Origin: Spirochaetes bacterium RBG_16_49_21
GTDB taxonomy: Bacteria; Spirochaetota; UBA4802; UBA5550
NCBI GenBank assembly: GCA_001829495.1
Contig: MIBJ01000004.1
Coordinates: 30,990-94,989, forward strand
Direction of reading: 5' to 3'
Length of the DNA: 64,000 bases
Shown piece by piece: positions 9,841-46,356 of the stretch. Numbering within the stretch: the stretch's first letter is position 1; every line of letters starts with the position of its first letter. The position numbers and the translations under genes were made by a program. Below the pieces are notes generated by a model. That model did not search any database and was not told the DNA's origin. It saw nothing but the letters and a program-made list of their open reading frames with translations.

Positions 9841-9874
9841 CACGCTCTTTGAAAACTTTAACATCCGCGTTTCA

Positions 9875-9927: not shown

Positions 9928-9970
9928 GCACCAACAGGTATTCCCTGGTACAATAACCTGGTATCACAAT

Positions 9971-9990
9971 TCCTGATACGGAGATCAGGA
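9971..9990 (+). promoter_or_regulatory. Stem-loop with GGA loop before the second flagellin (CsrA-like site)
   Basis: TCCTGAT (9971-9977) pairs with ATCAGGA (9984-9990) and exposes the hexaloop ACGGAG. It ends 11 bases before the AAAGGAG ribosome site at 10002-10008. Position and loop resemble a CsrA target and match the stem-loop before the first flagellin. Confidence 0.5.
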
Positions 9991-10015
9991 AAGATTTCAA
10001 CAAAGGAGTGTGCCC

Positions 10016-21355: not shown

Positions 21356-22003
21356 CTAATCAAGCCGCTCCGCCTCGATCAAGTCAAGCTCAAGCGAATA
21401 CCGGAGCAGGCCGTATCCGGTAAGCTCGATCCGGCCGGGGATCCCGTCATGGCGCAGCTTTTTAAACGCAACAAGACGCATCAGGTTCAGGGACGCGTCA
21501 TACGCGCGGATTTCCACGCTGCCGTCGTCCTTCATCAATGCCTCCGTGACTCCCCCGTCGGAGCGATACCTGCACACCGGGCCTTCCCCGGAAGAGCCAG
21601 TCTCGGCCGCTTCCCCTCCGGGCCTAAACAGCATGAGGCTGATATCGCGGATCACTCCCTTCACAAAGCTCTCGGATTCGAAGGGGCCGATGCCGCGCTT
21701 TATTACAAGCGCTCCGTCATAGTCCGCGTCCAGAAACACAAAACCCTCGATCGACATGAGGATGCAACGGATTCCGCCGCCCTGAGGGGAGGCGACGGAC
21801 ACGCCGATCATGGAGGCGTTCGCTCCGCCGGGGAGCGTACCGCTGATCAAGTGAACAAGGCGCCATCTGTTTTTCAGAAACGGGGCCTCGCACCTTTTAA
21901 TAATCCGCTCCTTTTCCGCGGAGCTTACGGGAGTTATTTTCAAAATTCCGGCGCAGGCTATTAAGGCCGGAAGCATCAAAAGAAGGAAAGCCGCTCTCAT
22001 CAT
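21356..22003 (-). CDS. Outer-membrane-type lipoprotein of the lipid cluster
   Basis: A 215-residue protein with a signal peptide ending in a lipobox (LIAC, Cys17). The mature part is beta-rich with no recognised catalytic motif. In aryl-polyene clusters a lipoprotein of similar size (DUF3261) is encoded beside the LolA-like gene. Order and size here match, but I cannot confirm the family by eye. Its start overlaps the LolA-like stop (ATGA), so the two are coupled. Probably it helps place the acyl product at the outer membrane. Confidence 0.65.
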   Translation of the reverse strand: MMRAAFLLLMLPALIACAGILKITPVSSAEKERIIKRCEAPFLKNRWRLVHLISGTLPGGANASMIGVSVASPQGGGIRCILMSIEGFVFLDADYDGALVIKRGIGPFESESFVKGVIRDISLMLFRPGGEAAETGSSGEGPVCRYRSDGGVTEALMKDDGSVEIRAYDASLNLMRLVAFKKLRHDGIPGRIELTGYGLLRYSLELDLIEAERLD

Positions 22004-22614
22004 ACGCCTAAAAAAAGGGAATCCGGAATCCGGGCGTTTAACTTCACTCTGCTGAAATCCAGGAGCGTGTACGATTTTTTGCTTTCATAGATCAGAACGG
22101 ACCGGATCACCCCCGGCTTGTTCGACAGCCTCAGCTCAATGCGCTGGATGATATCCGCGACCGACTTGTCCCGCGGCGTGAGGATAATAACTCTTCCCGG
22201 CTTGAGCTCAGGGATGAATCCCGGATTCGCGTTGAAGTCACCCTTCATCCATTGGACGATGTCAGAGAGGACTACCTGCATGGCCTGCATCCCGGCTGAC
22301 GAATCCTGCATGATTGTGTCCCCCTTTTTGATATAGCGCTTCACCGATCCGTCGTGCATGAGGAGAATGCTTCGAACGGGCGAGGTGTATTCCCACCGGA
22401 GCGATTTCGGGGCCTGGAAATAGAACGTGCCCCGTGAGATCAGGGGCCGTGACAATATTTCCATATGCTTTTCCTGAACGAACCGGGCCTCAACCGAACT
22501 GATCGTGCCGGCCCCTTTTTTAATCTGGTCCCAGGTATCGCCCCAGCCGATGAATGCTGCGGATAAAAAGACAATAGAAATGAGTCTTCCGAGTTTGCGT
22601 ATTATGTTGTTCAT
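22000..22614 (-). CDS. LolA-like periplasmic lipid/lipoprotein carrier
   Basis: A 204-residue exported protein of the LolA fold: 'VEARFVQEKHMEILSRPLISRGTFYF' (landmarks VEARFVQEK and SRGTFYF) followed by 'LRWEYTSP' are family signatures. LolA-like proteins carry lipoproteins or hydrophobic products across the periplasm. Cluster-specific copies are typical of aryl-polyene clusters. It overlaps the FabG start by one base and the lipoprotein by four, forming a tight four-gene run with the dehydratase. Confidence 0.85.
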   Translation of the reverse strand: MNNIIRKLGRLISIVFLSAAFIGWGDTWDQIKKGAGTISSVEARFVQEKHMEILSRPLISRGTFYFQAPKSLRWEYTSPVRSILLMHDGSVKRYIKKGDTIMQDSSAGMQAMQVVLSDIVQWMKGDFNANPGFIPELKPGRVIILTPRDKSVADIIQRIELRLSNKPGVIRSVLIYESKKSYTLLDFSRVKLNARIPDSLFLGV

Positions 22615-23351
22615 TACATCATCCCGCCGTTCACCGATATCACCTGGCCGGTGATATACGAGGCGTCGTCCGAGCAGAGGAACCGCACCACCGCAGCGAC
22701 CTCCTCAGGCTTTCCTATTCTGCCCATGGGAATGATGTTTGTGATCATCTCCACCGGAGCGTCCTTGATCATGTCGGTCTCGATCAGCCCCGGGGCCACG
22801 ACGTTGATCCGGATCCCCTTTTTCGCCACTTCCGAGGCTATGGAGCGGCTTGCGCCGATAAGTCCCGCCTTGGCAGCGGCGTAGTTCGCCTGGCCCTTGT
22901 TCCCGATAAGCCCGGCCACGGATGAGATGGATACGATCGAGCCCTTCTTCTGCCGGAGCATCCTTTTCAGAACCGGCTTGGTCATATTGTAAAATCCCTT
23001 GAGCGTGGTGCCGATGACCGAATCCCACTCAGCCTCCGGCATCATGAGAAAGAGGTTGTCCGCGGTCACGCCTGCGTTGTTTATCAAGGCGTCGATCACG
23101 GGAAACCGCTTTACGATATCTTCCATTGCCCTTTCCGCCTCGGCGGTATCGGCCACATCGAATTTCACGGTCTCCCCATCGCCCCCCGCCGCCCTCACCC
23201 GTCCCAGGGTCTCGGCTGCCGCCTGATCATTTGATTTGTAGTTTATAATGACGTAATACTTTTCCCCGGCCAGCTCGACCGCGATAGCCCTCCCTATCCC
23301 CCTGCTTGCGCCGGTAACGATGGCTACCCTGTTGTCCGCGCCCTGAGTCAT
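22614..23351 (-). CDS. fabG: 3-oxoacyl-ACP reductase, FabG-like (cluster ketoreductase)
   Basis: Reduces the beta-keto group after each chain-extension round. The 245 residues are the standard length. 'TGASRGIG' is at 13-20, 'NNAG' at 91-94, and the catalytic set is Ser144, Tyr157 and Lys161 ('SSVAG', 'YAAAK'). The C-terminus 'SYITGQVISVNGGMM' is typical of FabG. The gap to the upstream dehydratase gene is 12 bases. Being inside the cluster, it is more likely the dedicated reductase than the housekeeping enzyme. Confidence 0.9.
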   Translation of the reverse strand: MTQGADNRVAIVTGASRGIGRAIAVELAGEKYYVIINYKSNDQAAAETLGRVRAAGGDGETVKFDVADTAEAERAMEDIVKRFPVIDALINNAGVTADNLFLMMPEAEWDSVIGTTLKGFYNMTKPVLKRMLRQKKGSIVSISSVAGLIGNKGQANYAAAKAGLIGASRSIASEVAKKGIRINVVAPGLIETDMIKDAPVEMITNIIPMGRIGKPEEVAAVVRFLCSDDASYITGQVISVNGGMM

Positions 23352-23363: not shown

Positions 23364-23804
23364 TTATTCATTCTCGGGACGGAAAACCTGAAGCACCATC
23401 TCTGCGATAGTCTCGTTTCCCAGCTTGGCGGTGCCGGCAATTTCCGCATATACCTCGTCGCTCCTCCGTTCCTCGACCATCGTCACGATCCTCGCCTGAA
23501 GGGGAATTTTGTCCTTTAAAAATTCAGCGCTCTTGATGCCCACGAGCCATCCCCGTCCCGCCTTTGCTTTTTTCCCCTTCCGCTGTTCATGCCAGCCGAA
23601 GCTGACGCCGGCAGTCTGCGCCGCAAGCTCTATCAAAATGATCGGGCTGGCATATCCATCTTCAACAAGCGGCCAATCCGGCGAAACGGTCGCAGAGGTA
23701 ATGCAATGATTATCGTCGATCTCAACAATCTCATCCAGGAGCTTCATGCTGTTCCGGTGAGGAATCAGATTCTCAATGTCGATATTAATCTCCCGCATGT
23801 TCAA
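23364..23804 (-). CDS. Hot-dog 3-hydroxyacyl-ACP dehydratase, ApeP-like
   Basis: A 146-residue hot-dog protein beginning 'LIPHRNSMKLLDEI', with 'IILIELAAQTAGVSFG' as the central helix. It resembles the ApeP-type dehydratase subunit of aryl-polyene clusters rather than FabZ. The usual FabZ 'GHFP' motif is absent, so catalysis, if any, may need a partner (in APE systems ApeP works with ApeI; the second dehydratase here is at 28800). It is the first gene of the left, minus-strand arm and faces a divergent ACP gene across a repeat. Confidence 0.78.
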   Translation of the reverse strand: MNMREINIDIENLIPHRNSMKLLDEIVEIDDNHCITSATVSPDWPLVEDGYASPIILIELAAQTAGVSFGWHEQRKGKKAKAGRGWLVGIKSAEFLKDKIPLQARIVTMVEERRSDEVYAEIAGTAKLGNETIAEMVLQVFRPENE

Positions 23805-24096: not shown

Positions 24097-24354
24097 ATGG
24101 AAGAGCTGATCGCTGAATTAAAGGAAAAGATCATCGCGACCCTTGATTTGATAGACGTCACGCCGCAAGACATCAATGAGGATGACCGCCTCGTGGGCGG
24201 AAAGCTGGGAATCGATTCCATCGATGTGCTGGAGCTTGTCATGATGATTGATAAGGATTATTCGGTTAAAATCGACAGCAAAGAGCTCGGTGAAAAAATT
24301 TTCGCTTCGCTCAGAACACTCGCGGAATACATCCACAAAAGCCGCACGGGGTGA
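24097..24354 (+). CDS. Acyl carrier protein 1
   Basis: An 85-residue acidic carrier protein with 'LGIDSIDVLEL'. Ser41 is the phosphopantetheine attachment site. It would carry the growing chain for the adjacent ketosynthases. It belongs to the cluster-type ACPs seen with aryl-polyene genes rather than the canonical fatty-acid ACP (the usual 'LGADSLD' is 'LGIDSID'). The TGA stop overlaps the GTG start of the ketosynthase fusion. Confidence 0.92.
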   Translation: MEELIAELKEKIIATLDLIDVTPQDINEDDRLVGGKLGIDSIDVLELVMMIDKDYSVKIDSKELGEKIFASLRTLAEYIHKSRTG

Positions 24355-26534
24355 TCCTGTTGAACGGCACGCGGGTCTTTATTACCGGAATGGGAATCAT
24401 AAGCTCTCTCGGACAGGGAACGGGCCGCCATCTGGAATCACTGCAAAAAAACCGTTCCGGCATAAAACCGCTTACCCTGTTCACGCCGTCGCCGGGAAAT
24501 TCCTTCCCCGCCGGGGAAGTCCCCGGCTTCAGCCAAACCATGGCCGTACCCCGAACGCATGAGCTCGCGCTCCTGGCCGCCCGGGAGGCGCTTTCAGGAA
24601 CCGGCGCCGTTCCTGATTCAATCATCATTGGGACGACCACCGGCGGCATGCCGGTGACCGAAGAGCTGTTAAAGAAGAATGTGCCGGACCCGGACCAGTA
24701 CCGGTATCATTCGACCGCATCCGTGGCGGAATTCCTTGCCGCCGTTCTGCGCTGCACCGGGATGGTGCTCACCATCACCACCGCGTGCTCGTCAGGGGCG
24801 GCTGCGATCAAGCTTGCGTACGAGCTGATACGCTCGGGCAAGGCCGGACGCGTTCTCGCCGGCGGAGCGGACGCGCTCTGCAGGCTCACCTATTACGGGT
24901 TCAACTCCCTGCAGCTCATTGATCCGGCCGGAGCCCGGCCTTTTGACCGGGAGAGAAAGGGAATGACCGTTGCCGAGGGCTCGGCCATGCTCCTCCTTGA
25001 AGGAGGGGAATCAGTGCCTGACTGCGCCGTTGTGGAAATCCTGGGCGGAGGACTTTCCTGCGACGCGTACCATCCGGCAACCCCGCATCCGGAGGGAAAG
25101 GGAGCGCTTGCGGCAATGAGGAAGGCCCTCCAGAGTGCGGGTATTTCTCCCCGGGAGGTCGGCTATATCAATCTTCACGGGACCGGGACCAGGGACAACG
25201 ATCTTGCAGAAGCGAGGGCCCTGAATTCCCTCTTTGGGAACGCGATGCCCCTCCTGTCATCGGTGAAGGGCGCCTTCGGCCACTCCCTCGCCGCAGCGGG
25301 CGCGATCGAGGCTGTGGTCTGCGCCGCGGCCGTCAGGGAAGGGCTGATCCCGGCAAATACCGGGTGCGCTGATCCGGATCCGGAATTAAACCTGAAGCCG
25401 GTTCTCACCCCCCGTGCCGAAAAGGCAGCCGTCGTCCTGTCCAACTCCTTCGGCTTCGGCGGCAACAATGCATGCCTGGTGCTCGCGGATCCGGCCGCGA
25501 AGCGTGAAAAGCCGGTCCCCGTCGAACCGTCCGGATTTGAAATATTGGGAAGCGCCTGCATCACCGGCGCGGGAGACACGGACCAGACTTTGCGGAAATT
25601 AACTGTAGACAAAACCTGTAGCGGAATCCTGCCGCTTGCGGATATATCGAAAGATCTTCCTGCCCGCGAGGTGCGCCGGCTGAAAAGGCTGCCGCGGCTT
25701 GCGCTTGCCCTGGCAATGGAAGCGCGCAAAATCTCAAACCATGATCAAACCCCGTCATCCGTCTTTTTCGGCACATCATGGGGCCCCCTGTCCGAAACAT
25801 ACGATTTCCTCACCCGGCTGTATGCATCAAACGAGCAGTTCACGAGCCCGACGGAATTCGTCGGCTCGGTTCACAACGCTCCGGCCGGACAGGCGGCCAT
25901 CATGCTCGGGGCAGACGGAGCGAACCTTACCCTTACCGGCGGCGACTATTCCTTTGAGCAGGCCCTGATCGCCGCCACCCTGACGGCGGCCGACGGCGGC
26001 ACCGCGCTCGTCATGGCAGCCGACGAGTTTCATGAGACGCTATCTCCATTGTTCGATGCATCCGTACGGCTGAGCCGGGTACCGTCCGACGGCGGAGGCG
26101 CGCTCGTGCTGCGAAAACCAGCAGGCGGATCACGGCCACGGATAAGGCCGGTCTTCTTCGAAAATTCCGTCAACAATCCATCCATACTGCAATCGCTTGT
26201 TCAGAGCCTGGGAGGTACGGAAGAGATCAGCGCCCGGTACGGCGCCCTGTTCGCCGGAATGCCGATGAAAGATCGGGACGCCTGCGAAAAACAGCTCGGC
26301 GAAATTATTAAAGCCGCTGAATTCAGAGCCCCGGCCGTCGATTTCCGGAGATTTACCGGCGAATACGGGTCCGCAACCGCGACTGCAGTCGCTCTGGCGG
26401 CGGGGTTCGTGCGGGACGGGAATATCCCCTCCTCCATCACCGGCGGCGCGGAATGCCCCCTCGGCGGAAAAGGAATTTTGATCCTGGGGCTGGGAGGCTT
26501 TGTCACGGCCATTGAAATTCTAAATTGCCCGTAA
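24351..26534 (+). CDS. Ketosynthase fused to a chain-length-factor-like second half
   Basis: A 727-residue protein. Residues 1-385 are a complete FabF-type ketosynthase with Cys146 ('TACSSG'), His276 ('HGTGT') and Lys306/His311 ('SVKGAFGHS'), ending in 'NSFGFGGNN'. Residues about 395-727 are a second thiolase-fold half that lacks the catalytic triad: 'SVHNAPAG' (506-513) is the hallmark of the KS-like domain found as chain-length factor in aryl-polyene and coronafacic-type clusters (Ketoacyl-synt_2), and the nucleophile position reads 'TGGDYSF'. In known APE systems the two are separate proteins (ApeO and ApeC). The GTG start overlaps the ACP stop. The overlap and the intact frame argue for a real fusion, not a missed stop. 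Confidence 0.88.
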   Translation: MILLNGTRVFITGMGIISSLGQGTGRHLESLQKNRSGIKPLTLFTPSPGNSFPAGEVPGFSQTMAVPRTHELALLAAREALSGTGAVPDSIIIGTTTGGMPVTEELLKKNVPDPDQYRYHSTASVAEFLAAVLRCTGMVLTITTACSSGAAAIKLAYELIRSGKAGRVLAGGADALCRLTYYGFNSLQLIDPAGARPFDRERKGMTVAEGSAMLLLEGGESVPDCAVVEILGGGLSCDAYHPATPHPEGKGALAAMRKALQSAGISPREVGYINLHGTGTRDNDLAEARALNSLFGNAMPLLSSVKGAFGHSLAAAGAIEAVVCAAAVREGLIPANTGCADPDPELNLKPVLTPRAEKAAVVLSNSFGFGGNNACLVLADPAAKREKPVPVEPSGFEILGSACITGAGDTDQTLRKLTVDKTCSGILPLADISKDLPAREVRRLKRLPRLALALAMEARKISNHDQTPSSVFFGTSWGPLSETYDFLTRLYASNEQFTSPTEFVGSVHNAPAGQAAIMLGADGANLTLTGGDYSFEQALIAATLTAADGGTALVMAADEFHETLSPLFDASVRLSRVPSDGGGALVLRKPAGGSRPRIRPVFFENSVNNPSILQSLVQSLGGTEEISARYGALFAGMPMKDRDACEKQLGEIIKAAEFRAPAVDFRRFTGEYGSATATAVALAAGFVRDGNIPSSITGGAECPLGGKGILILGLGGFVTAIEILNCP

Positions 26535-26559: not shown

Positions 26560-27906
26560 ATGAAAGTACTTCTCGTTTCAGCAAACAGGGTGCGGACCCC
26601 CTACTACGTATATCCTCTGGGGCTTGACTATGTGGCTTCAGCGATATCGGGCAGACACCAGGTGAAAATAACGGACATCAATTCCCGCGAAAAAGCCCGG
26701 TCCATCATCGATACGATCAGGGATTTTGCTCCTGATGTAATCGGCATATCCATCCGCAATATCGACAATGTGGATGCGCATGATGTCAAGAGCTTCATTA
26801 CATTCTACCGTGAACTCATCCTTGCCGTCAGGGAAATCACCGGAGCGGTCATCGTTGTCGGCGGAAGCGGGTTCACCATCTTCCCGGAGCGGATGATGCA
26901 GGCACTCGAGCCTGATTACGGCATCATCGGCGAAGGGGAGCGGATGTCCGTTTTTCTCGAAGCCCTTGAATCCGGGAAAGACCCGTCAGCCCTTTCCGGC
27001 GTTATCGCGCCCGGCATGAAGGAAGCCTTCCCCCCTCCCCTTGAGCTTCCCTTCACGAGAACCGTGACCCCGGAATCGGTTGCCGAATTTTACCTGTCCC
27101 GGGGCGGCATGCTCAACCTGCAGACAAAGCGGGGATGCACCTATAATTGCATCTACTGCACCTATCCCCACATCGAGGGAGCGGCCCTGCGGCTCATCCC
27201 CGCTGATGAGGTGGCCGGCACCGCCGTGAAACTGGAGCGCGCCGGCGCGAAATACCTCTTCATCACCGATTCCGTGTTTAACACCAGCTACGAGCACAGC
27301 GCAGATGTGGCCCGCGCCTTTGCTGCCAAGGGGCTTACTATCCCCTGGGGAGCTTTTTTCGCGCCGACAAAGCCTCCGGAAAACTACTACCGCGTGCTTC
27401 ACCGGGCCGGTCTGACCCACGCGGAATTCGGAACCGAGGCGCTGGCCGGCTCCATGCTCGCGTCATACCAAAAGCCCTTCAGCGTGGGTGATGTTTTCAC
27501 GGCCCACGCCGCAGCCCTGGATGCCGGGCTGTATGCGGCCCACTATATCCTCCTGGGAGGCCCGGGCGAGAACCGGCACACGGTAACTGAAACGCTCGAC
27601 AACGCAGAGCGGCTCGATAAAACCGTGATCTTTTTTTTCTGCGGCATCAGGATATACCCGCATACCAGAATTTATGAAATCGCCCGAGCTGAGGGTCAGA
27701 TAGCAGAGACCGACGATCTGCTGGAGCCGGTGTTCTACCAGTCCGGATCCATTTCCGGCGAGGAGATCATCTGCATGGTCGAGGAACGCGGCCGGAAGCA
27801 TGAAAACTGGTTCATCGGCTCAGGAGGGAATAAGGCTGCCCGGCTCGTTTCGCGCCTTCATAAACAGGGCCATAGCGGCCCCCTGTGGGAGCATATGATC
27901 AGATGA
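26560..27906 (+). CDS. B12-binding-type radical SAM enzyme 1
   Basis: A 448-residue protein. Residues 1-150 have the Rossmann-like layout of a cobalamin-binding domain ('LLVSANRV', 'DVIGISI', 'VVGGSGFTIFPE', 'YGIIGEGE'), but the DxHxxG histidine is missing ('ITDINSRE'), so cobalamin would bind without a His ligand. The radical SAM cluster is C193, C197, C200 ('CTYNCIYC'). 'LLGGPGE' is a later SAM-binding loop. Such enzymes do C-methylation, ring or bond rearrangements. Context points to the acyl chain as substrate. It is ATGA-coupled to the deacetylase-like gene. Confidence 0.88.
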   Translation: MKVLLVSANRVRTPYYVYPLGLDYVASAISGRHQVKITDINSREKARSIIDTIRDFAPDVIGISIRNIDNVDAHDVKSFITFYRELILAVREITGAVIVVGGSGFTIFPERMMQALEPDYGIIGEGERMSVFLEALESGKDPSALSGVIAPGMKEAFPPPLELPFTRTVTPESVAEFYLSRGGMLNLQTKRGCTYNCIYCTYPHIEGAALRLIPADEVAGTAVKLERAGAKYLFITDSVFNTSYEHSADVARAFAAKGLTIPWGAFFAPTKPPENYYRVLHRAGLTHAEFGTEALAGSMLASYQKPFSVGDVFTAHAAALDAGLYAAHYILLGGPGENRHTVTETLDNAERLDKTVIFFFCGIRIYPHTRIYEIARAEGQIAETDDLLEPVFYQSGSISGEEIICMVEERGRKHENWFIGSGGNKAARLVSRLHKQGHSGPLWEHMIR

Positions 27907-28703
27907 GAGAAGCCCCGCCAGCCATCCGATTGACGCCGGCGCTTCAGGCATGCATCGCAGCGTATCTGGCTGCAATGCTCCTGGCATTCGTAGACGTACG
28001 GCTCTCCGCCGTACCCCTGGCTCTGTTTCTGTTTCTTTGCATTGCCGCGCCCTTTTTTCCCGGATTCGGTTTTTATCTGCCGGTAATAAGCCGCGGGTGT
28101 TCCGGCAGGCGCGCCGTGGCCATAACCTTTGACGACGGCCCGGACCCGGTAACCACGCCCGCGCTCCTGGAACTCCTGAAAAGGCATGATGCCGCAGCCA
28201 CCTTTTTTATCATCGGCGGGCATGCCGCCGAGCACCGGAGCCTGGTGAAAAAAATTTTAAGCGACGGCCACACCATCGGAAATCATTCATACCACCACTC
28301 ACCGCTCTTAATGCTCAGATCCCTTTCCCATCTCCGCGCCGAGATCCGGAGCACGCAGGCATTATTATCGGAATTCAGCGTCTCTTCCCTCGCCTTCAGG
28401 CCGCCGGTCGGGATAACGAGCCCGCGGCTCGGACCGGTCCTCGCAGAAGCGGGATTAATATGCGTGAACTTCAGCTGCCGCGGATTCGACGCAGGAAACA
28501 GGCGCATCAGCCGGCTTTCGGGAAAAATACTGCGCCGGGTCAAACCGGATGACATAATACTGCTGCACGACCGCGCGCCGAAAAGTTCGGTTGACCTCGG
28601 TAAATTTCTCAATGAGGTGGAATTGATCCTTGTCGGATTGAATGATAAGGGGCTCGAAATCATCCCCCTTTCGGAAATCATCGGCCGACCGATAACCAAA
28701 TGA
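27903..28703 (+). CDS. Membrane-anchored polysaccharide-deacetylase-like (NodB/CE4) protein
   Basis: A 266-residue protein. Two helices near residues 13-33 and 38-55 anchor a NodB-homology domain with 'TFDDGPDP' (catalytic Asp and metal Asp), 'NHSYHHS' (metal His pair) and 'FRPPVG'. Late 'ILLHDRA' holds the final catalytic His. This set is complete, so deacetylation or de-N-acetylation of a sugar-containing molecule is plausible. The ATG at 27903 overlaps the radical SAM stop. I infer a glycan or amide-bearing substrate, perhaps the headgroup of the cluster's lipid. Confidence 0.83.
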   Translation: MREAPPAIRLTPALQACIAAYLAAMLLAFVDVRLSAVPLALFLFLCIAAPFFPGFGFYLPVISRGCSGRRAVAITFDDGPDPVTTPALLELLKRHDAAATFFIIGGHAAEHRSLVKKILSDGHTIGNHSYHHSPLLMLRSLSHLRAEIRSTQALLSEFSVSSLAFRPPVGITSPRLGPVLAEAGLICVNFSCRGFDAGNRRISRLSGKILRRVKPDDIILLHDRAPKSSVDLGKFLNEVELILVGLNDKGLEIIPLSEIIGRPITK

Positions 28704-28799: not shown

Positions 28800-29195
28800 A
28801 TGAATAAAGAATGGCATTCTTTAAAAAACCTGAGAGTAACTGAGACCCCGGAGATTTCAGCCGAGGCGACCATTAAACCGGATTCATCATGGTTTGACGG
28901 TCATTTCCCCGGGTTCCCGATCCTGCCGGGAATCGCACAGCTCGGCATCGTTTCTGATTTGATCAGAATGGCCGCGGCAAACAAGGGAAAAACCATATCC
29001 ATTTCCCAAATATGGAAAGTGCGCTTCAGGCAATTTATCAGGCCGAACGACACGGTGAGCGTGGTAACGTCGCCCGACAAACATGATCCGAATACATACC
29101 GATTCAAGCTGCTGGTTAAGGGTCAGATAGCATGCAACGGAGTGATGGCAACCGGCGCCGCCGATGATGAAATTACGACCAAGGAGCACGGTTGA
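28800..29195 (+). CDS. FabZ/ApeI-like hot-dog dehydratase
   Basis: A 131-residue hot-dog protein with the catalytic 'FDGHFPGFPILPGIAQLG' motif (His in GHFP). This is the pattern of FabZ and of ApeI, the active dehydratase of aryl-polyene clusters. It would dehydrate 3-hydroxyacyl-ACP to the 2-enoyl form, and with no enoyl reductase in the cluster repeated action would leave conjugated double bonds. The 96-base gap upstream contains TTGACA at 28721-28726 but no clear -10. ACP2 follows after 12 bases. Confidence 0.88.
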   Translation: MNKEWHSLKNLRVTETPEISAEATIKPDSSWFDGHFPGFPILPGIAQLGIVSDLIRMAAANKGKTISISQIWKVRFRQFIRPNDTVSVVTSPDKHDPNTYRFKLLVKGQIACNGVMATGAADDEITTKEHG

Positions 29196-29207: not shown

Positions 29208-29465
29208 ATGCCGGATAAAAAAACAATACTCCGCGTGGCGGAGATTCTGATCGATGAGCTGAAACTTGAAGATATTACGCCGGAAACCTTTAACCCGGAT
29301 CTCGATCTGGTCGACGAGCTGGGAATCGACAGCATGGATCTGACCACCGTGGTACTTGTTCTTCAGGATGAGTACGGCATAACCATTGATGAGGAGGATT
29401 ATCCGAAACTGTCGAATGTCACATTAATCGCGGAATATATCGAAGAAAAGTTGAAGGAAAAATAA
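29208..29465 (+). CDS. Acyl carrier protein 2
   Basis: An 85-residue acidic ACP with 'LGIDSMDL'; Ser42 carries the phosphopantetheine. It has a good ribosome site (GAGGA at 29193-29197). It differs clearly from ACP1, as the two ACPs do in aryl-polyene clusters, where they serve loading and elongation. The position just before the two radical SAM genes makes it a candidate carrier for a radically modified intermediate, but this is inference. Confidence 0.92.
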   Translation: MPDKKTILRVAEILIDELKLEDITPETFNPDLDLVDELGIDSMDLTTVVLVLQDEYGITIDEEDYPKLSNVTLIAEYIEEKLKEK

Positions 29466-29529: not shown

Positions 29530-30624
29530 GTGAACGTTAAACACGCGAAAACCATTGCCGCAAAAAAAAACGAGGACGGCAATAAAATTAAATTCTCGGA
29601 TATCATCAAGGACCCGGCGATACGTGAGCGATGGGAAAAGGTCCGCAAATTCTTCTTTCTCCGGGAATCGACCTACGATATGACCAACCGTTGCAACATC
29701 AGATGCGACGGCTGCTATTATTATGAGGGTGAGAAGCAATTCGCCAAGGAAAACGGGACGCCGGAACAGTGGCGCTCGCTCGTAAAAAGCGAGAGGGAGC
29801 GGGGAATCACCTATGTGGTCCTGGCCGGAGCCGAGCCGTCTCTGGTCCCCCGGCTTTGCCAGGTATGCTTCGAGGAGATCCCGCTCGGCTGCATCGCCTC
29901 CAATGGATTCAAGCGCATTCCTGAATCGGTGGGGTATAAGATCCACATCTCCGTATGGGGAAACGACGAAACCAGCCTGCGGGTTCGGAACGCTAAGCAT
30001 CTGCTGGAAAAACAGATCCGGAATTACGCAGGGGACCCCCGCGCGGTGTTCGTGTATACCTTCACCAGGGAAAATATCAATGAGATATACGACATCATGG
30101 AAGTCCTGTCAAAGCAGGACGGGAAAATTACTTTTAACACCTTTTCAGCCCCGGTCGGATACACGGGCAAGCTCCGCCATGACCGGCAATCGCTCTCTTT
30201 GACGAGAAAAACGATGATGGATATCTTGATAAAATATCCCGATAATGTCCTTTTTTCGCCATATAATGTGGTGGCCCACACCCATTCCAGCAGCCTGCAT
30301 GAATTGTACGGCTGCTCATACCCCCGGATGAACCCGTCCACGGACATCGGTCTCGGAAGATCGTTTCGGCAGTACCGGACCGACCTTTCATGGGACCGGA
30401 GCGCCTCCTGCTGCGTGCCCGACACCGACTGCGCTGACTGCCGCCACTATGCTGCCGGAAGCGCGGTGGTGACCGCCAGGCTCTACCGTCACGCGACCGA
30501 TGCCGAGAGCTTCAAGGCCTGGCTTGACTATGTCGACACCTACCTTGCGGTATGGGTCATGGGCTATGAAAAGGGGGAAAGCCTCCTGGATCATATGACG
30601 CCTCCGCCTGAATTCGCGCTATAG
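29530..30624 (+). CDS. Radical SAM enzyme with C-terminal Cys cluster (paralogue A)
   Basis: A 364-residue protein. The SAM-binding cluster is C55, C59, C62 ('CNIRCDGC'). The usual 'GGE' is altered to 'AGAEP'. A C-terminal Cys group, 'CC-x6-C-x2-C' near residues 298-308 with another Cys in 'YGCSYP', suggests a SPASM/twitch-type auxiliary iron-sulfur cluster. It starts with GTG and is preceded by AAGAGG. The next gene is a diverged paralogue sharing the same Cys plan. Function unknown: such pairs commonly dehydrogenate or link C-H positions. The cluster context suggests an ACP-bound chain. Confidence 0.85.
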   Translation: MNVKHAKTIAAKKNEDGNKIKFSDIIKDPAIRERWEKVRKFFFLRESTYDMTNRCNIRCDGCYYYEGEKQFAKENGTPEQWRSLVKSERERGITYVVLAGAEPSLVPRLCQVCFEEIPLGCIASNGFKRIPESVGYKIHISVWGNDETSLRVRNAKHLLEKQIRNYAGDPRAVFVYTFTRENINEIYDIMEVLSKQDGKITFNTFSAPVGYTGKLRHDRQSLSLTRKTMMDILIKYPDNVLFSPYNVVAHTHSSSLHELYGCSYPRMNPSTDIGLGRSFRQYRTDLSWDRSASCCVPDTDCADCRHYAAGSAVVTARLYRHATDAESFKAWLDYVDTYLAVWVMGYEKGESLLDHMTPPPEFAL

Positions 30625-30647: not shown

Positions 30648-31646
30648 ATGAATACCGTCAGTTCAATGCTGGATAATGAATGGCATGAACGATACAGGCA
30701 GATATCAAAGCTCAATATCCGGAGCTCGATATACGATGTGACCAACAAATGCAATCTCCGGTGCAAGGGCTGCTTCTTTTTCTCCTCCGACGAGCATAAG
30801 AAATCCCCGGACGAACCAGACATTCGGAAATGGGAGGAGTTCGTCGACCGGGAGAAGGCCCGCGGAGTCAATCTCGCCATTCTTATAGGCGGAGAGCCGA
30901 CCCTGTTCCTTGACCGGGTCGAGGCCTTCTACAGGCGCCTCCCCACCTACTGCGCCACCAACGGCATCATCAAGGTGCCGCGGGAACGCTTCCCCGACTT
31001 GATGGTCGGCATATCGCTCTGGGGGGACGAAGAGGACGAGAAAACGCTCAGGGGACGCGACACCTTCTCCATTTCGCGGAAAAACTACGAGGGTGATCCC
31101 TACACCTACTATCTGTATACCATTACGCCGAAGCAGATCGGAAAGATAGAGCGAATCATTAAAAAAATCGCGGATGTCGGCCTCAAAGTTCACATGCAGC
31201 TCTTGTCCAATGACGAAGGGGTCGACGGATTTTCATGGAAGCATGAGGAGCTGCTGGATTTAAGGAAGGAGATGGACGAGGTGCTGGATAAATATCCGGA
31301 CACCGTGATCTCCTCGAAATATTACCACCAGATAATAACCACCGGCACCATGCTCGGCAGGCCCTTCGGCTGGATGGAGTGCCCGTCGGTGACCAAGCCG
31401 CTCGACAACCGCAAGCCGGAGCCTAAGCGGCTGATTGAATTCATCAGATGGGCCGCGGATCTGAAGACCATGCACCGCTGCTGCACCTCCGAGACGCGCG
31501 AATGCTCCACCTGCAAGGACGGAGCCGCGCACATGAGCTGGGTCATGGTCAACAAGCGGGCCCACATGCGCTCCCCCAAGGACCTCCAGAACTGGATAGA
31601 GGTCTACGAGATGTTCGCCAAGCTGTATAAGTTCATACCGTGGTAG
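30648..31646 (+). CDS. Radical SAM enzyme with C-terminal Cys cluster (paralogue B)
   Basis: A 332-residue protein and paralogue of the preceding one: both contain 'YD.TN.CN.RC.GC' at the front. Cluster Cys are C35, C39, C42. 'IGGEPTL' keeps the normal GGE. C-terminal 'RCCTSETRECSTC' repeats the CC-x6-C-x2-C plan, and a further Cys is in 'MECPSV'. It has a strong ribosome site (AGAGGAG, eight bases before ATG). It ends six bases before ketosynthase 2. Paralogue A with a changed GGE and B with a normal one could mean one active and one regulatory partner, or two distinct reactions. Confidence 0.87.
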   Translation: MNTVSSMLDNEWHERYRQISKLNIRSSIYDVTNKCNLRCKGCFFFSSDEHKKSPDEPDIRKWEEFVDREKARGVNLAILIGGEPTLFLDRVEAFYRRLPTYCATNGIIKVPRERFPDLMVGISLWGDEEDEKTLRGRDTFSISRKNYEGDPYTYYLYTITPKQIGKIERIIKKIADVGLKVHMQLLSNDEGVDGFSWKHEELLDLRKEMDEVLDKYPDTVISSKYYHQIITTGTMLGRPFGWMECPSVTKPLDNRKPEPKRLIEFIRWAADLKTMHRCCTSETRECSTCKDGAAHMSWVMVNKRAHMRSPKDLQNWIEVYEMFAKLYKFIPW

Positions 31647-31652: not shown

Positions 31653-32894
31653 GTGCATAAAGCAGTAATAATCGGATACGACACCGTGTCCCCTCTGGGC
31701 ACGGACATGCACACGCAGTGGGAGCGCGCCGTTTCCGGCGAAAGCGGCATAGGAAGGCTCACCAGGTTTTCTTTTAACGAAGATTTCCCGGTTCATATAG
31801 CGGGCCAGGTCGGCGAGATCGACGCGGGCCCCTATCCCTTCCTCTCTCCCCGCGAGATGGCGCATTGGATCTCGCCGATCTTCAAGCACGCGATGCTTGT
31901 GGCGCACCGTGCTCTGGAAAGAAGCGGAATTGAAATAACGCCGGATCTCGCCCCGCGCGTGGGCGTGACCTTCAGCTCCGCCGTGGGAGGCCTGGACGCG
32001 GTCATCGCCGCCGACCGGCTCATGATAAAAGAAAATAAATTGCCTCACCCCTTCACGAATCCGAATTCGTGCATCAATATGGTCGGCGGCAAGGTCTCCA
32101 TCCTTACCGGGGCGACCGGCCCGATAAGTGCGACCATCACCGCATGCGCCACCGGGGCGACGTCCATGATCATAGGCTCCCTGTTCCTGAACCAGGGTCT
32201 GGCGGACGCGGTCATCTGCGGGGCAGTGGATTTTCCCCTGGTTGAGCCTATTGTGGCGGGCTTCGCATCCATGAACGGCGCGTATAAACATAAAAAGGAC
32301 CAGCCCGAGCAGCCTGAACAAGCGAGCCGACCTTTCTCCGTAAACAGAAGAGGGTTTGTCGTTTCAGAAGGAGCGGCAGGCGTGATCATCTGCACCCGGG
32401 AGTTCGCCGAGGCGCACGGCCTGAAGTTTCAAATAGAGATCGCCGGCTACGGCATGACCTCGGACGCGCGCCATTTTGTAGCGCCAAACCTCGACACCGT
32501 CACCCGCTGCATTGCGGAGAGCATTTCCGACGCCGGCATACGGCCTTCAGACATAGCTGCGGTCAACGCACACGGCACCTCGACCAAAATCGGCGACAAG
32601 GTCGAGTTCGACGCCCTCAATACTATTTTCGGGGGGAAGATACCGCCGGTGTCCGCGAACAAATCCCAGATCGGACATGCCATGGGCGCTTCAAGCGGCA
32701 TCGAGTCGATATTCGCCATGGAAGGGATGCTCAAGAACAGACTGCTCCCGACTATAAATTATACGCCGGATCCTGAGATCGGGCTCGACTGCGTGTCAGA
32801 GGGAGCGCGCAGCCTTGAACAGGAATTCGTGCTTAAAAACGCGTTCGGCTTCGGCGGGTGCAATTCATGCATCGTGTTCCGGCGGGTGGGGTAA
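31653..32894 (+). CDS. Ketosynthase 2, FabF-like
   Basis: Beta-ketoacyl-ACP synthase of 413 residues. Catalytic set: Cys165 ('TACATG'), His307 ('HGTST') and Lys337/His342 ('NKSQIGHAMG'). 'FGFGGCN' near the end is the usual glycine loop. It is closely related to ketosynthase 3 (41252), with the same 'LPTINYTPDPE' and 'NKSQIGH' blocks, and less to the KS fusion. GTG start, six bases after the radical SAM gene. A cluster-specific elongation or priming role is likely. Confidence 0.92.
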   Translation: MHKAVIIGYDTVSPLGTDMHTQWERAVSGESGIGRLTRFSFNEDFPVHIAGQVGEIDAGPYPFLSPREMAHWISPIFKHAMLVAHRALERSGIEITPDLAPRVGVTFSSAVGGLDAVIAADRLMIKENKLPHPFTNPNSCINMVGGKVSILTGATGPISATITACATGATSMIIGSLFLNQGLADAVICGAVDFPLVEPIVAGFASMNGAYKHKKDQPEQPEQASRPFSVNRRGFVVSEGAAGVIICTREFAEAHGLKFQIEIAGYGMTSDARHFVAPNLDTVTRCIAESISDAGIRPSDIAAVNAHGTSTKIGDKVEFDALNTIFGGKIPPVSANKSQIGHAMGASSGIESIFAMEGMLKNRLLPTINYTPDPEIGLDCVSEGARSLEQEFVLKNAFGFGGCNSCIVFRRVG

Positions 32895-35772: not shown

Positions 35773-35889
35773 TGTTGCTCCCTCCTTATTTTAAATTTAT
35801 TCGATTCAGGAACGTGCTGCCCCTCTTTCAAAGCCCGTACATCCCGCATCATTTGAATTTCAGCCCAGCCGGGAAAAGCATCGCGCCGG

Positions 35890-36168
35890 TTATCCGAAAC
35901 GCATAACGATGACGAGCCAGACAATTGAAATCGGCAAGGCAAACCAGAGGCTCCAGTCGGTCAGCCCCACCCATGCTATATTGATATACGCGCTGCAGAG
36001 CAGCCCTATAAAGAAACGGTCGCCGCGCGTTGTGGAGATCGGAAGAAATCTCCGACGTTCGATTGAGGGCGCTATGACCTCCCACACACCCATTCCCACC
36101 AGCATGAGCGCAATAATAATAAAGAAACCGGCAGTAATCGGCGTCCAATACATCCATTCTAATTTCAT
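35890..36168 (-). CDS. glpU: Small membrane subunit of the glycerol transporter, GlpU-like (DUF2160)
   Basis: A 92-residue protein with two or three helices ('FFIIIALMLVGMGVWEV' and 'WFALPISIVWLVIVM'). It sits between permease and binding-protein genes in the same place as glpU in rhizobia, where its role is unknown. The ATG at 36168 is favoured over an upstream one because the extra residues are charged and lie inside the permease end region, and because GGAACGG precedes it. Confidence 0.75.
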   Translation of the reverse strand: MKLEWMYWTPITAGFFIIIALMLVGMGVWEVIAPSIERRRFLPISTTRGDRFFIGLLCSAYINIAWVGLTDWSLWFALPISIVWLVIVMRFG

Positions 36169-36184
36169 TGCCGTTCCTCTTTTT

Positions 36185-37857: not shown

Positions 37858-37870
37858 CACATCTCCCCTG

Positions 37871-40056: not shown

Positions 40057-40106
40057 TATTGCTCCTAGCATTGTAAATCTATCGATGGAATATTCTTAAC
40101 TGATAG

Positions 40107-41251: not shown

Positions 41252-42517
41252 ATGAGAGCACCAAAAAACAGACGCGTCTTTGTAATCGGATACGGCGCCG
41301 CAACGCCGCTCGGGGCAACGTTCGAAAAATCGTGGGAGCGGGCTGTCCGGGGTGAAGCAGGGTTCAGGAAGGTAACCCGCTGCCGGGTCCGGACCGCATG
41401 CGACGTCGTGGGCGAGATACCGGACTGGGACCCGCGCTCCCTTGATTTCGCCGACAAAAAGGAGATATACAACTGGAGTGCTGATTTCGTGCTCCTCACC
41501 ATGGCGGTCTGCCAGGAGGCGCTCCGGGACGCGGGCCTTGAAATCGATACGGAGACCGGGCCGAGAACCGCCTGCCTCATCGGCTCCGCCCTTAACGGCT
41601 CCGATGCGTACCGGAAGGCAATGGACAACTACCTCACCAGAGGCCCGCTGAAAGTGAGCCCCTACCTTCTGCCCAACCTGTGCGCGAACCTCCCCTCGGG
41701 CAAGGCGGGGATGCTCCTGGGATTCACCGGGCCCATCTTCTCACCCGAGGGGGCGTGCGCCTCGGGCAATCACGCCATAGGAATCGGCGGCCGCATGATA
41801 CGGGACGGCGACGTGGACTTCGTGCTTGCCGGCGGGGTGGACACCTGCATCATACCCGAGATCATTCACGGGTTCGAGAACATGAACGCCACGATCAAGA
41901 TCAGGCCGGGCGACCGGGCGTTCACCGCTCCGTCCCGGGCTTCGCGTCCGTTCAGCATAGACCGGAAAGGCTTCGTTCTTTCAGAGGGGGCCGGAGTCGT
42001 CGTTCTGGCGGCGGATGAAATGATTACGGCGTACGGGCTCAAGCCAAGGGCGGAGCTTCTCGGCATCGGGTGGAACTCCGACGCCTTCCACATAACCAGG
42101 CCCAATAAGGATACCATCATCATCGCTATCCGCATGGCCATTGAAGACGCGGGGCTAAAGCCTTCCGACATCCAGTACGTCAACGCGCACGGCACCTCAA
42201 CCCTAAAAGGCGATTCGACCGAGATCGAGTGCCTCAAGGCCGTGTTCGGGAAAGACATGGAGAATATCCCGGTGTCGTCAAATAAATCGCAGATCGGACA
42301 TACGATCGGCGCGGCAGCCGCCATAGAGGCTGCCTTCGCCATTGAGGGGATGCGGCGGGGAATCATCCTCCCCACGGTAAACTACATCCCGGACCCGGAG
42401 CTTGCGGGCGTGGACGTCGTTCCCGACAAGGCCCGCAGCCAGAGCCATGAGATCGTTCTTTCCAATGCATTCGGCTTCGGCGGCACAAACTGCTGCGCCG
42501 TGTTCAGGGGCGTGTGA
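41252..42517 (+). CDS. Ketosynthase 3, FabF-like
   Basis: A 421-residue beta-ketoacyl synthase. Cys169 is in 'GACASG', His313 in 'HGTST', Lys345/His350 in 'NKSQIGH', and 'FGFGGTN' is at the end. It is most like ketosynthase 2. It opens the second plus-strand arm of the lipid cluster. No clear ribosome site precedes the ATG. Its TGA stop shares a base with the thioesterase start. With three ketosynthases and one dead KS-like half, priming, elongation and branch roles may be divided among them. Confidence 0.92.
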   Translation: MRAPKNRRVFVIGYGAATPLGATFEKSWERAVRGEAGFRKVTRCRVRTACDVVGEIPDWDPRSLDFADKKEIYNWSADFVLLTMAVCQEALRDAGLEIDTETGPRTACLIGSALNGSDAYRKAMDNYLTRGPLKVSPYLLPNLCANLPSGKAGMLLGFTGPIFSPEGACASGNHAIGIGGRMIRDGDVDFVLAGGVDTCIIPEIIHGFENMNATIKIRPGDRAFTAPSRASRPFSIDRKGFVLSEGAGVVVLAADEMITAYGLKPRAELLGIGWNSDAFHITRPNKDTIIIAIRMAIEDAGLKPSDIQYVNAHGTSTLKGDSTEIECLKAVFGKDMENIPVSSNKSQIGHTIGAAAAIEAAFAIEGMRRGIILPTVNYIPDPELAGVDVVPDKARSQSHEIVLSNAFGFGGTNCCAVFRGV

Positions 42518-42996
42518 TGAAGCCGAAGCCCTTCAGGCCGGAGCCGTACGGCAACGACGGACGATACGTCCGCGATACCACAAGCGGCGAGATTTGGCAC
42601 CGGTGCCAGTACCGGACTCTGTACGCGGACACAGACCGGTCCGAGGTCGTGTATCATTCCAATTATCTCAGATATTTTGAATTCGGCAGGACCTCGCTCA
42701 TGCGGGATACCGCCTATCCCTACCGGGAGATCGAGAAAAGCGGGTACGTCTACCCGATCATCGATCTCGGCATCACCTTTTACAAGCCGCTCTATTACGA
42801 CGATCTGATATGGATACACACCCGGCCCATCGAGCTTGAGCGGGTGAAGCTCACGTTCGACTATATCATCACCCTTGCCCAAACGGGCGATATGATCTGC
42901 CGCGGTTTCACCCGCCACTGCGCGCTCAACAAGAGGGGCATGCCGGTGGCTGTTGATGAAAAGACGGTCCACCTATGGAAAGCCTTTCCCAAATAA
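42517..42996 (+). CDS. YbgC/4-hydroxybenzoyl-CoA-type acyl thioesterase
   Basis: A 159-residue hot-dog thioesterase. 'YADTDRSEVVYHSNYLRYFE' (landmarks YADTD and VVYHSNYLRYFE) is the YbgC-type active-site segment, with the catalytic Asp in 'DTD'. Such enzymes release acyl groups from CoA or ACP, and one is usual in aryl-polyene clusters. The ATG at 42517 overlaps the ketosynthase 3 stop, and the gene's own end overlaps the next start by 22 bases. It probably trims or releases the chain. Confidence 0.88.
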   Translation: MKPKPFRPEPYGNDGRYVRDTTSGEIWHRCQYRTLYADTDRSEVVYHSNYLRYFEFGRTSLMRDTAYPYREIEKSGYVYPIIDLGITFYKPLYYDDLIWIHTRPIELERVKLTFDYIITLAQTGDMICRGFTRHCALNKRGMPVAVDEKTVHLWKAFPK

Positions 42997-44468
42997 TACC
43001 GGTCACCATTCCCGTGGCGGATTACCTCCGCGATCACGTGCACAACGAGCGGGCCGTTTTCCCGGCGGTCGAATCCATGGCCGTCCTTGCCCGGTCCTGC
43101 CTGCCGCTCCTGCACGGCTCCGCCGCGATCCGAATGGATCAAGCCGATTTTATTAAATTTCTGCAGATCGACCATGATGCCGCGCACATTGAAGCGCTCA
43201 ATGAAGTAACAAGGCTTGACAACGGCGCTGTTTCTTGCCGGCTCATTACGGTCCGAAAACAGGGAAAATCAGGCATCGTACGCCGGATTGAACACGCGTC
43301 GTGCATCTTAAACAAGAGCGCCGTTCCTCCGAAAGAACCGCCGCTCGACACTATCCTGGGCCTTGAAGGCGTGTGCATTCAATTGAGCATGAAACAGGTC
43401 TACAGCGAACTGATCCCCTTTAAATCCGCGTATCAAAACATCAATGAGCTCTTTGTCACGGACCAGGGCGCGATCGCGATCGTTGACGGGGGAACGGATA
43501 AGGCTCCTTCCGAACCGCTCGGTTCCCCGTTTCCCCTGGACGCCTCATTTCACGCTGCGTGCGTGTGGGGGCAGCGCTTTGCCGGCATTGTAGGGTTCCC
43601 GGTCCATATTGACCGGCGTATCATTATGCAAAAAACCAGGCCGTACCAGACCTATATAAGCAGAATAACGCCGGTCAAGGCCGGCCCGAGCCTGCTCATA
43701 TTCGATCTCTGGATCTACTCTATCGAAGGCAGGCTGTGCGAGGAAGTCCGGGGCCTGCACCTTAAAGACGTCAGCGGGAAAAAGCTCCTGCCGCCGGAGT
43801 GGATACGAAGCGGGAAGGACAAGAGGCTTGAATCCGTCAGGTCCGCATGCAGGGAGCTTTCCCTGATCGAGCTTGCGACCGTGACCAAGCCGTGCGAAGG
43901 GATATTGTCCCCTCCGGAAATGGAGCGGTTCAGAAGCATGCGTGAAAAGCGGGGCAAAAGCTTTGTCGCTGCGCGGCTTGCGCTGAAAAAGCTCTCGCGA
44001 GGGTCATCCGGAAGCGACATGACGGCGCCGGCGAGCTCGATTACGACCATAGAGCCGGACGGCAGGCCTGCATGTCCGGTCACCGGCGGCGAGGATACCC
44101 GGTGGTGCACCGCATCCCATGACGCGCGATTCGCGGTTGCGGCGGTATCCGATCGCCGGATCGGAATAGACGTGGAGGAAATATCAGGCCGCGTTCTCAA
44201 ATCGCAGCGCCTGTATATGCACGAGGAAGAGCTCCCTCTCGTGAAAAGCCACGCTCTCGGGGACCGGGAAGCCTCGGCCAGGGTGTGGAGCATAAAGGAG
44301 GCTGTGTCAAAAGCGGCAGGCATGAATCTTGCAGATGCGTGGCAGAGGACAAGGGTGAAGGAAATCGGCAGGGAAAAAAGCGTTATTCTGATCGATGATG
44401 AAACTCACGAGGCCATCCATGCTGTTGTGGACGGGCATATCTTTACTGTGATTGTGATGAAATCCTGA
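42975..44468 (+). CDS. Polyketide-type dehydratase fused to a phosphopantetheinyl transferase
   Basis: A 497-residue fusion. Residues about 10-270 look like a PKS double-hot-dog dehydratase: His21 lies in a HxxxGxxxxP-like motif in which Gly is Glu ('HVHNERAVFP'), and Asp189 in 'PLDASFHAA' fits the second catalytic residue. Residues about 340-497 are an Sfp-type phosphopantetheinyl transferase with 'RIGIDVEE' (Asp399, Glu401) and 'WSIKEAVSKAAG' (Lys441-Glu442). The transferase would activate the two cluster ACPs. I recall no named family with exactly this fusion outside large polyunsaturated-acid synthases, where the transferase is often C-terminal. Confidence 0.83.
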   Translation: MESLSQIIPVTIPVADYLRDHVHNERAVFPAVESMAVLARSCLPLLHGSAAIRMDQADFIKFLQIDHDAAHIEALNEVTRLDNGAVSCRLITVRKQGKSGIVRRIEHASCILNKSAVPPKEPPLDTILGLEGVCIQLSMKQVYSELIPFKSAYQNINELFVTDQGAIAIVDGGTDKAPSEPLGSPFPLDASFHAACVWGQRFAGIVGFPVHIDRRIIMQKTRPYQTYISRITPVKAGPSLLIFDLWIYSIEGRLCEEVRGLHLKDVSGKKLLPPEWIRSGKDKRLESVRSACRELSLIELATVTKPCEGILSPPEMERFRSMREKRGKSFVAARLALKKLSRGSSGSDMTAPASSITTIEPDGRPACPVTGGEDTRWCTASHDARFAVAAVSDRRIGIDVEEISGRVLKSQRLYMHEEELPLVKSHALGDREASARVWSIKEAVSKAAGMNLADAWQRTRVKEIGREKSVILIDDETHEAIHAVVDGHIFTVIVMKS

Positions 44469-45416: not shown

Positions 45417-45448
45417 ATGAAGGCGGGGTTGCGCAACCCCGCCTTCAT
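45417..45448. terminator. Strong hairpin between convergent genes
   Basis: ATGAAGGCGGGGTT and AACCCCGCCTTCAT form a perfect 14-pair stem around GCGC. It overlaps the fabD stop codon and lies just past the pyrophosphatase fragment. No U-run follows on either strand, so termination would not be classical; it is placed to stop both transcripts. Confidence 0.55.
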
Positions 45449-46356
45449 GCCTTGAGGAGCCTCTCGCCGGAAACAATCTTCTGATCCTTGACGATGCGCT
45501 TAACCAGGCCGGCGAGCACGCTTCCCGGCCCCGACTCGATAAAGGTTGCAGCCTCCGCGTTGCAGGCGGCGAGCACCGACTTTTCCCACTGCACGGGGCT
45601 TGAAAGCTGAAGCACGAGCTTTCTCCTGATCTTCTCGGGATCATTCTCCATGAGCCCGGTAACGTTATCGATGAATTCCATCCGCGGCTGCTTGAAGGTA
45701 AAATCCGCAAGAAAGCCGCTGAATTCATCGGCAACCGGCTTCATGAGGGACGAGTGGAATGGGGCGGACACGTTCAGCTCAACAGCCCTGCCGGTCCCTC
45801 CGTCGTTGACGAGCCGTACGGCCGCGTCCACGGCTTCCTTTTGGCCGGAAATGACCACCTGGGTCGGCGAATTGAAATTGGCTATCTCGATCACGCCCGA
45901 GCTTCTGCTCTTCTCGACGATATCTTCCAGCTTGGTCTTATCTATGCCGATAACCGCAGCCATGGTGCCGGGAGTGTTCTTCACCGCCTTCTCCATAAGC
46001 TCGCCGCGCCTCCGGACGATCCGCACCGCATCGGCAAAATCGACGACGCCGGAGTGAACCAGGGCGTTATATTCGCCCAGGGAATGCCCCATCACGATAT
46101 CCGCCCGGTACCCCCGGGCATCGATCGCCTTGCTGAAGGCTATCCCCATGACGAGCAGGGCGGGCTGGGTATTTGAGGTCCTGGTGAGCTCCTCATCCGG
46201 ACCCTGGTCAATGAGCACGCTCAAGGAAAAGCCCAGGATATAGTCGGCGGTGCTGAAAAGCTCCTTCTGCTCTTCGGACATGGAGCCGAGCTTGTTTCTC
46301 ATTCCGACCGACTGAGACCCCTGACCCGGGAACATGTACACGGTTTTTCCGCCCAT
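45445..46356 (-). CDS. fabD: Malonyl-CoA:ACP transacylase, FabD-like
   Basis: Loads malonyl units onto ACP. The 303 residues include 'FPGQGSQSVGM' near residue 9, 'GHSLGEYNAL' with Ser92, and 'APFHSSLM' with His201. Housekeeping FabD and a cluster copy look alike. Its place next to the AMP-ligase and radical SAM genes on the minus strand suggests cluster membership. In aryl-polyene clusters a dedicated transacylase is not standard. Confidence 0.92.
   Translation of the reverse strand: MGGKTVYMFPGQGSQSVGMRNKLGSMSEEQKELFSTADYILGFSLSVLIDQGPDEELTRTSNTQPALLVMGIAFSKAIDARGYRADIVMGHSLGEYNALVHSGVVDFADAVRIVRRRGELMEKAVKNTPGTMAAVIGIDKTKLEDIVEKSRSSGVIEIANFNSPTQVVISGQKEAVDAAVRLVNDGGTGRAVELNVSAPFHSSLMKPVADEFSGFLADFTFKQPRMEFIDNVTGLMENDPEKIRRKLVLQLSSPVQWEKSVLAACNAEAATFIESGPGSVLAGLVKRIVKDQKIVSGERLLKA

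Follow-up and report, generated by a model that had tools for sequence, protein, structure and literature searches.

A ketosynthase and a chain-length factor joined in one reading frame in an order of Spirochaetota, within an aryl-polyene-type gene neighbourhood

Several described biosynthetic systems pair a working ketosynthase (KS) with a catalytically dead KS-like partner, the chain-length factor (CLF), made as a separate chain. Such pairs include ishigamide (PDB 6kxd), actinorhodin (1tqy) and entry 9s5h, all with a full-length partner, and the aryl-polyene pair ApeO-ApeC (6qsp), in which ApeC has one thiolase subdomain (PMC8358021). In PfaC, from the polyunsaturated fatty acid (PUFA; omega-3) synthases, the KS-CLF pair is intramolecular (PDB 6riw; Santin et al. 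2020, as cited in PMC13311796). Gene sets of similar composition occur in the type II fatty acid synthesis clusters of anammox bacteria and Desulfotalea, which combine a KS and a Cys-less FabF with a B12-binding radical S-adenosylmethionine (SAM) protein, further radical SAM proteins, a phytoene-desaturase-like gene and a deacetylase-like gene (Rattray 2009, PMC2649909). Here we report a computational analysis of a 64,000-nucleotide stretch (the window) of Spirochaetes bacterium RBG_16_49_21 (GCA_001829495.1, contig MIBJ01000004.1, positions 30,990 to 94,989), in which one gene encodes an active KS followed by a full-length CLF.

The gene (24351-26534, plus strand) comprises 727 codons in a single uninterrupted frame. 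Its first half carries the N- and C-terminal KS Pfam domains (residues 8-337, ∼1e-30 apiece), and its second half matches PF13723, Ketoacyl-synt_2 (residues 435-561, 2e-14). Among PDB sequences, the best match of the KS half is 9s5h_B (E 1e-66), with FabF and KS chains also close and ApeO (6qsp_A) also matched; the CLF half matches ApeC (6qsp_B, 1e-6) and 9s5h_C (2e-5). Because the N- and C-terminal halves thus correspond to two different KS-like chains of the same entry (9s5h_B and 9s5h_C, respectively), the fusion unites partners that elsewhere are produced as separate chains.

A homologue search covered 59 related genomes; the same order was represented by 46 genomes in the analysis. Full-length fused homologues were found in ten other genomes, all of that order (five from the same genus, two from the same family, three from elsewhere in the order); the fusion is carried by 11 of the 46, at 41-66% identity and without internal stops. 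In the alignment of these 11 homologues, C146, H276, K306 and H311 are invariant, the N-terminal half retaining the Cys-His-His set and the conserved Lys of an active KS. Equally invariant is the block G505-S506-V507-H508-N509-A510-P511-A512 of the C-terminal half, in which the position of the nucleophile (D532, within TGGDYSF) is Asp in ten homologues, Ser in one and Cys in none. The KS motif HGTGT aligns with AGMP in this half, and GHS with GE[YFH] (GRF in the most distant homologue), which leaves the C-terminal half without both catalytic histidines. A first-pass annotation of the DNA had described an active KS with these catalytic residues, joined in one frame to a KS-like half with the motif SVHNAPAG and no nucleophile, the frame overlapping the upstream acyl carrier protein (ACP) gene; all of this is borne out, including the residue numbers, and the observation of a fused KS-CLF is confirmed. 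The overlap amounts to 4 nucleotides between the GTG start of the fusion and the stop of ACP1 (24352-24354). In two same-genus homologues the first codon position is GTA rather than GTG, and a second candidate position is TTG or GTG in every homologue within the genus; the true start may be the TTG at 24360 rather than the GTG.

Structure prediction and a search for the fusion in related genomes were the two checks proposed by the same annotation, and both came out in its favour. The C-terminal half (residues 395-727), modelled alone with AlphaFold2, adopts a thiolase/KS fold (predicted local distance difference score, pLDDT, 88.5; predicted template-modelling score, pTM, 0.90); among its 343 Foldseek matches in the PDB (E<=1e-3), every one of the 50 listed is a KS or a CLF, and these include ishigamide and AntDE structures. 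The model of the whole chain (pTM 0.92) has as its top Foldseek match the PfaC KS-CLF didomain 6riw (E 4e-43; template-modelling score, TM, 0.79 by query length, 889 columns), a match that spans both domains and leads the next PDB entry by nine orders of magnitude. A high TM across both domains needs a similar relative placement of the two, and the model therefore predicts intramolecular pairing of the halves, probably in a PfaC-like manner. PfaC shares with the fusion the order of active KS and dead CLF in one chain, paired intramolecularly. PfaC, however, belongs to a large multidomain megasynthase of type I, whereas the protein described here is a 727-aa, two-domain, stand-alone protein accompanied by discrete ACP, FabG-type ketoreductase and dehydratase proteins, with a KS half that is FabF/ApeO-like by sequence. 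The multidomain type I organization of PUFA synthases, with tandem ACPs and dehydratase domains, is not seen in the fusion.

The surrounding genes point to aryl-polyene or flexirubin-type synthesis. The core set of such a system is present (KS-CLF, ACPs, FabG/ApeQ-type and ApeP/ApeI-type enzymes and LolA), and these neighbours are of the same kinds as those of ApeO-ApeC, with which the fusion also shares a KS and a PF13723-type dead partner. Of the 11 fusion genomes, 9 have an aromatic ammonia-lyase, versus 1 of the 35 other genomes of the order, where it is a fragment (Fisher test 5e-7, an overstated value, as related genomes are not independent); on five contigs the lyase lies 12-46 kb from the fusion. 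In one genome (G021) the fusion sits in a nearly complete aryl-polyene-type set, with MMPL, family 2 glycosyltransferase (GT2), acyltransferase, thioesterase, aromatic ammonia-lyase, O-methyltransferase and ligase genes and a PRK09116-type KS above its cut-off. In the source genome, GT2 and acyltransferase genes adjoin the ammonia-lyase on contig C45, and MMPL genes are found on other contigs.

We therefore consider, with a probability of roughly 0.8, that the product of this gene is a genuine KS-CLF heterodimer within a single chain, and that it belongs to an aryl-polyene/flexirubin-type chain-building pathway with discrete, type II components. The N-terminal half would be the working KS, loading the extending acyl chain onto Cys146 and condensing it with malonyl-ACP; the C-terminal half, a full-length dead KS relative, would fold back as the obligate dimer partner, as in PfaC, and complete the active-site tunnel. 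Judged by the enzyme families present, each condensation would be followed by FabG ketoreduction and ApeP/ApeI-like dehydration, with repeated rounds giving a polyene on the ACPs of the cluster. With no enoyl reductase observed among the cluster genes, the polyene is predicted to be conjugated; building this chain, with the dead half as obligate partner, is the most likely job of the protein. Delivery of the polyene to a membrane lipid would fall to LolA and the other genes for export and acyl transfer. We infer a polyene product and an aryl starter from this gene content. The fusion might also fix a 1:1 stoichiometry, prevent KS homodimers and control chain length.

Several observations weigh against this assignment. 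In the source genome the ammonia-lyase lies on another contig (G000:C45) than the fusion; in two of the fusion genomes (G024 and G033) no ammonia-lyase was found. The CLF half has two thiolase subdomains where the separate ApeC has one, and the protein is thus not a plain ApeO-ApeC fusion. The intramolecular pairing comes from a predicted model built on an alignment of only 11 sequences. On balance, the interpretation given in the first-pass annotation is supported, its aryl-polyene attribution by the neighbourhood and the co-occurrence of the ammonia-lyase. Its statement that KS and CLF are separate in aryl-polyene systems is right for ApeO and ApeC, but fused KS-CLFs have precedents in PfaC and in Priestia and Streptomyces proteins described below.

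The neighbourhood is summarized in Table 1, and its gene order is largely preserved in relatives. ACP1 adjoins the fusion in 10 of 10 homologous loci, and the upstream genes (ApeP-like dehydratase, FabG, LolA-like carrier and lipoprotein) are divergent from it. In the window an ABC-transporter block (34021-40071) splits KS2 from KS3, and past it another B12 radical SAM gene accompanies the group from KS3 to the ligase; in genome G002, KS2 and KS3 are only 2.6 kb apart with other genes between them, one of them phosphoesterase-like. The deacetylase gene, 272 aa in the window, reaches 487-497 aa in several relatives; in G002, the one relative scanned, a methyltransferase domain accounts for the added length and is missing from the window gene. 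Comparison of this G002 domain with solved structures gave no match to the anammox methyltransferase AmxMT1 (8HD2). Elsewhere in the window, two genes at 8931-10867 encode flagellins that by eye resemble spirochaete periplasmic flagellins, as would suit a spirochaete host.

Table 1. Features of the KS-CLF fusion and its neighbourhood, in window coordinates.
Feature	Position	Strand	Basis or remark
Putative lipoprotein	21356..22003	-	No family match; conserved beside LolA in cluster
LolA-like periplasmic carrier	22000..22614	-	Best NCBIfam match flexirubin LolA2, below cut-off
FabG-type ketoreductase	22614..23351	-	Best NCBIfam match flexirubin FlxB, below cut-off
ApeP-like dehydratase	23364..23804	-	PF22817; only PDB match 6qsr_B (FabA/FabZ-type dehydratase)
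Acyl carrier protein 1 (ACP1)	24097..24354	+	PF00550; NCBIfam PRK09184 at cut-off
KS-CLF fusion protein	24351..26534	+	727 aa; GTG start, TTG at 24360 possible alternative; open frame, homologues, AlphaFold2 and Foldseek
Ketosynthase half, residues 7-380	24369..25490	+	Pfam KS N/C domains; invariant catalytic residues
Catalytic codons of KS half	C146 24786-24788; H276 25176-25178; K306 25266-25268; H311 25281-25283	+	
Linker, residues 381-394	25491..25532	+	0-50% identity, alignment of 11 homologues
Chain-length-factor half, residues 395-727	25533..26531	+	PF13723, PDB sequence matches, AlphaFold2 and Foldseek
Asp532 codon of CLF half	25944-25946	+	Nucleophilic Cys replaced
B12-binding radical SAM protein	26560..27906	+	TIGR04072 rSAM_ladder_B12, 392.7 bits vs cut-off 360
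Polysaccharide deacetylase	27885..28703	+	272 aa
ApeI/FabZ-like dehydratase	28800..29195	+	PF07977, PF22818
Acyl carrier protein 2	29208..29465	+	PF00550
Radical SAM protein	29530..30624	+	PF04055
Radical SAM protein	30648..31646	+	80-91% identity in relatives
Stand-alone ketosynthase KS2	31653..32894	+	
Stand-alone ketosynthase KS3	41252..42517	+	Beyond ABC-transporter block
4HBT thioesterase	42514..42996	+	
Dehydratase-like domain joined to phosphopantetheinyl transferase	42975..44468	+	
Malonyl-CoA:ACP transacylase, FabD-type	45445..46356	-	
AMP-binding acyl/aryl ligase	46378..47730	-	34% identity to ligase of the aryl-polyene-type cluster in G021

The radical SAM genes downstream raise a different possibility, namely that the fused KS-CLF mainly serves a ladderane-like or an anaerobic polyunsaturated-lipid pathway, in which the B12-binding and other radical SAM enzymes would cyclise or otherwise modify its polyene; its aryl-polyene-like neighbours would then be shared or ancestral genes. 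In the window TIGR04072 lies directly downstream of the fusion; 10 of the 11 fusion genomes have it, versus 0 of the 35 other genomes of the order (Fisher test 3e-9, again overstated for related, non-independent genomes). The tandem radical SAM genes, the deacetylase with or without a methyltransferase domain and, in two genomes, a phytoene-desaturase-like (amine-oxidase) gene adjoining the B12 radical SAM gene (G024, L033 8034-9500; G033, L047 11247-12749) echo the gene pools of the anammox and Desulfotalea clusters (kuste3605/kuste3606, kuste2803; PMC2649909). This likeness to the Kuenenia genes is one of composition; there, separate genes encode the KS and the non-canonical FabF, whereas the KS and CLF are fused here. 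The methyltransferase domain lacks the AmxMT1 match. Moreover, the radical SAM module is on a different contig from the fusion in G033, the G021 fusion has no TIGR04072 in its genome, and E. coli carrying anammox ladderane candidate genes yielded no ladderanes (PMC4790861). Weighing these points, we regard a mainly ladderane-like role as possible but rather doubtful.

A hybrid of the two pathways can also be envisaged, in which the fused KS-CLF would build an aryl or alkyl polyene and a B12 radical SAM module of ladderane type, inherited together with the fusion, would cyclise or otherwise remodel that polyene. The result would be an aryl-polyene/ladderane-like anaerobic lipid pathway outside the anammox bacteria, with the fusion as a lineage-specific solution to polyene building; we hold this combination to be improbable.

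The aryl-polyene-type, single-chain heterodimer that we favour also has to be set against a different quaternary arrangement. Stand-alone FabF-type KSs are homodimers, and a single-chain model cannot reveal pairing between chains; each half could in principle homodimerise with its counterpart in a second chain, in a domain-swapped or tetrameric assembly, the fusion serving as a tether only. The high pTM of the single-chain model, its best match to the intramolecular arrangement of PfaC over both domains, and the fact that the dead half is always found together with the active one make this very improbable.

That a base error or an assembly artefact fused two neighbouring genes has a vanishingly small probability, given one frame without stops in 11 genomes at the identities above, with the linker kept and both halves under purifying selection, even though a distant relative (G085, from another family of the same phylum) has the same kind of pair split, the ATG of the CLF adjoining the stop of the KS. 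The selection was measured in one congeneric pair (dN/dS 0.08 for the KS half, 0.13 for the CLF half), and conservation in the alignment is lowest in the 14-residue linker. When the 46 genomes of the order were searched with a profile of the C-terminal half, no split version of this fusion turned up; every close match falls within a fused frame, and the one remaining hit is weak and belongs to a separate, ApeC-like gene at another locus in G010. A second fusion suspected in that genome (contig C248) was rejected, as a stop divides it into two genes. With the same stop-free fusion in 11 genomes and no split copy in the order, the fusion is natural and not a sequencing artefact, as the first-pass annotation had argued from the uninterrupted frame. 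In the KS tree a single clade (100/99) holds the KS halves of the fusions, with G085, the sole split relative of this type found in the phylum, beside it (94/94) on a long branch; in both the KS and CLF trees the deep branches are long, and the 11 fusions form the only firm grouping. Their distribution would be most simply read as a single fusion event in the ancestry of the order, followed by losses.

Fused KS-CLFs are also found outside this order. A search of genome contigs returned only three distant relatives. Coding sequences on plasmids of Priestia megaterium (WP_013060151.1, 809 aa; L052 3998-6427) and Streptomyces sp. NBC_00536 (WP_330335539.1, 787 aa; L053 3941-6304) are KS-CLF fusions, each, as here, an active KS followed by a Cys-less KS-like half, with ∼30-34% identity over the matched part; both are annotated merely as 'beta-ketoacyl synthase family protein'. 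Both lie in type II clusters of discrete fatty-acid-type genes: the Priestia gene is surrounded by genes for an ACP, FabG, FabZ and a malonyltransferase, and the Streptomyces gene by those for a ketoreductase, dehydratases and KSs. In the trees, the halves of these proteins cluster with unfused pairs, in another clade than the 11 fusions, and KS-CLF fusions have therefore probably arisen more than once, in separate events.

Other arrangements of KS-like domains were also observed. G350 (L041 5604-7985; also G369 and G382), from the same phylum, encodes a 793-aa KS-KS-like fusion after an ACP gene, in a different genomic setting, with ∼28% identity and halves that group with unfused pairs. In G052 (L039 8498-10306), a CLF-like domain and an AMP-binding ligase share one 602-aa frame beside a separate KS gene. 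The source genome itself has, on contig C70 (L043 8429-10908), an unfused KS (406 aa) with a full-length KS-like protein (411 aa) in which HGTGT is replaced by EGNGT; by eye, the adjoining genes resemble those for the activator and subunits of a 2-hydroxyacyl-CoA dehydratase/benzoyl-CoA reductase-type enzyme.

With PfaC as precedent, the KS-CLF fusion architecture is a variant of an established theme and not new in kind. The open-access literature yielded no description of fused type II KS-CLFs, and the aryl-polyene-type fused form and its radical SAM company appear to be undescribed. Native KS-CLF pairs are often hard to co-express, and a compact 727-aa protein with discrete partners would be a handy single-chain system in which to probe what the dead half does (pairing, tunnel shape and chain length); PfaC is embedded in a megasynthase. 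What is least explained at this locus, and of greatest interest, is the steady company of the fusion with a ladderane-type radical SAM module; exclusive to the fusion genomes within this order, the association with TIGR04072 offers a genetic lead to the substrate of that radical SAM family.

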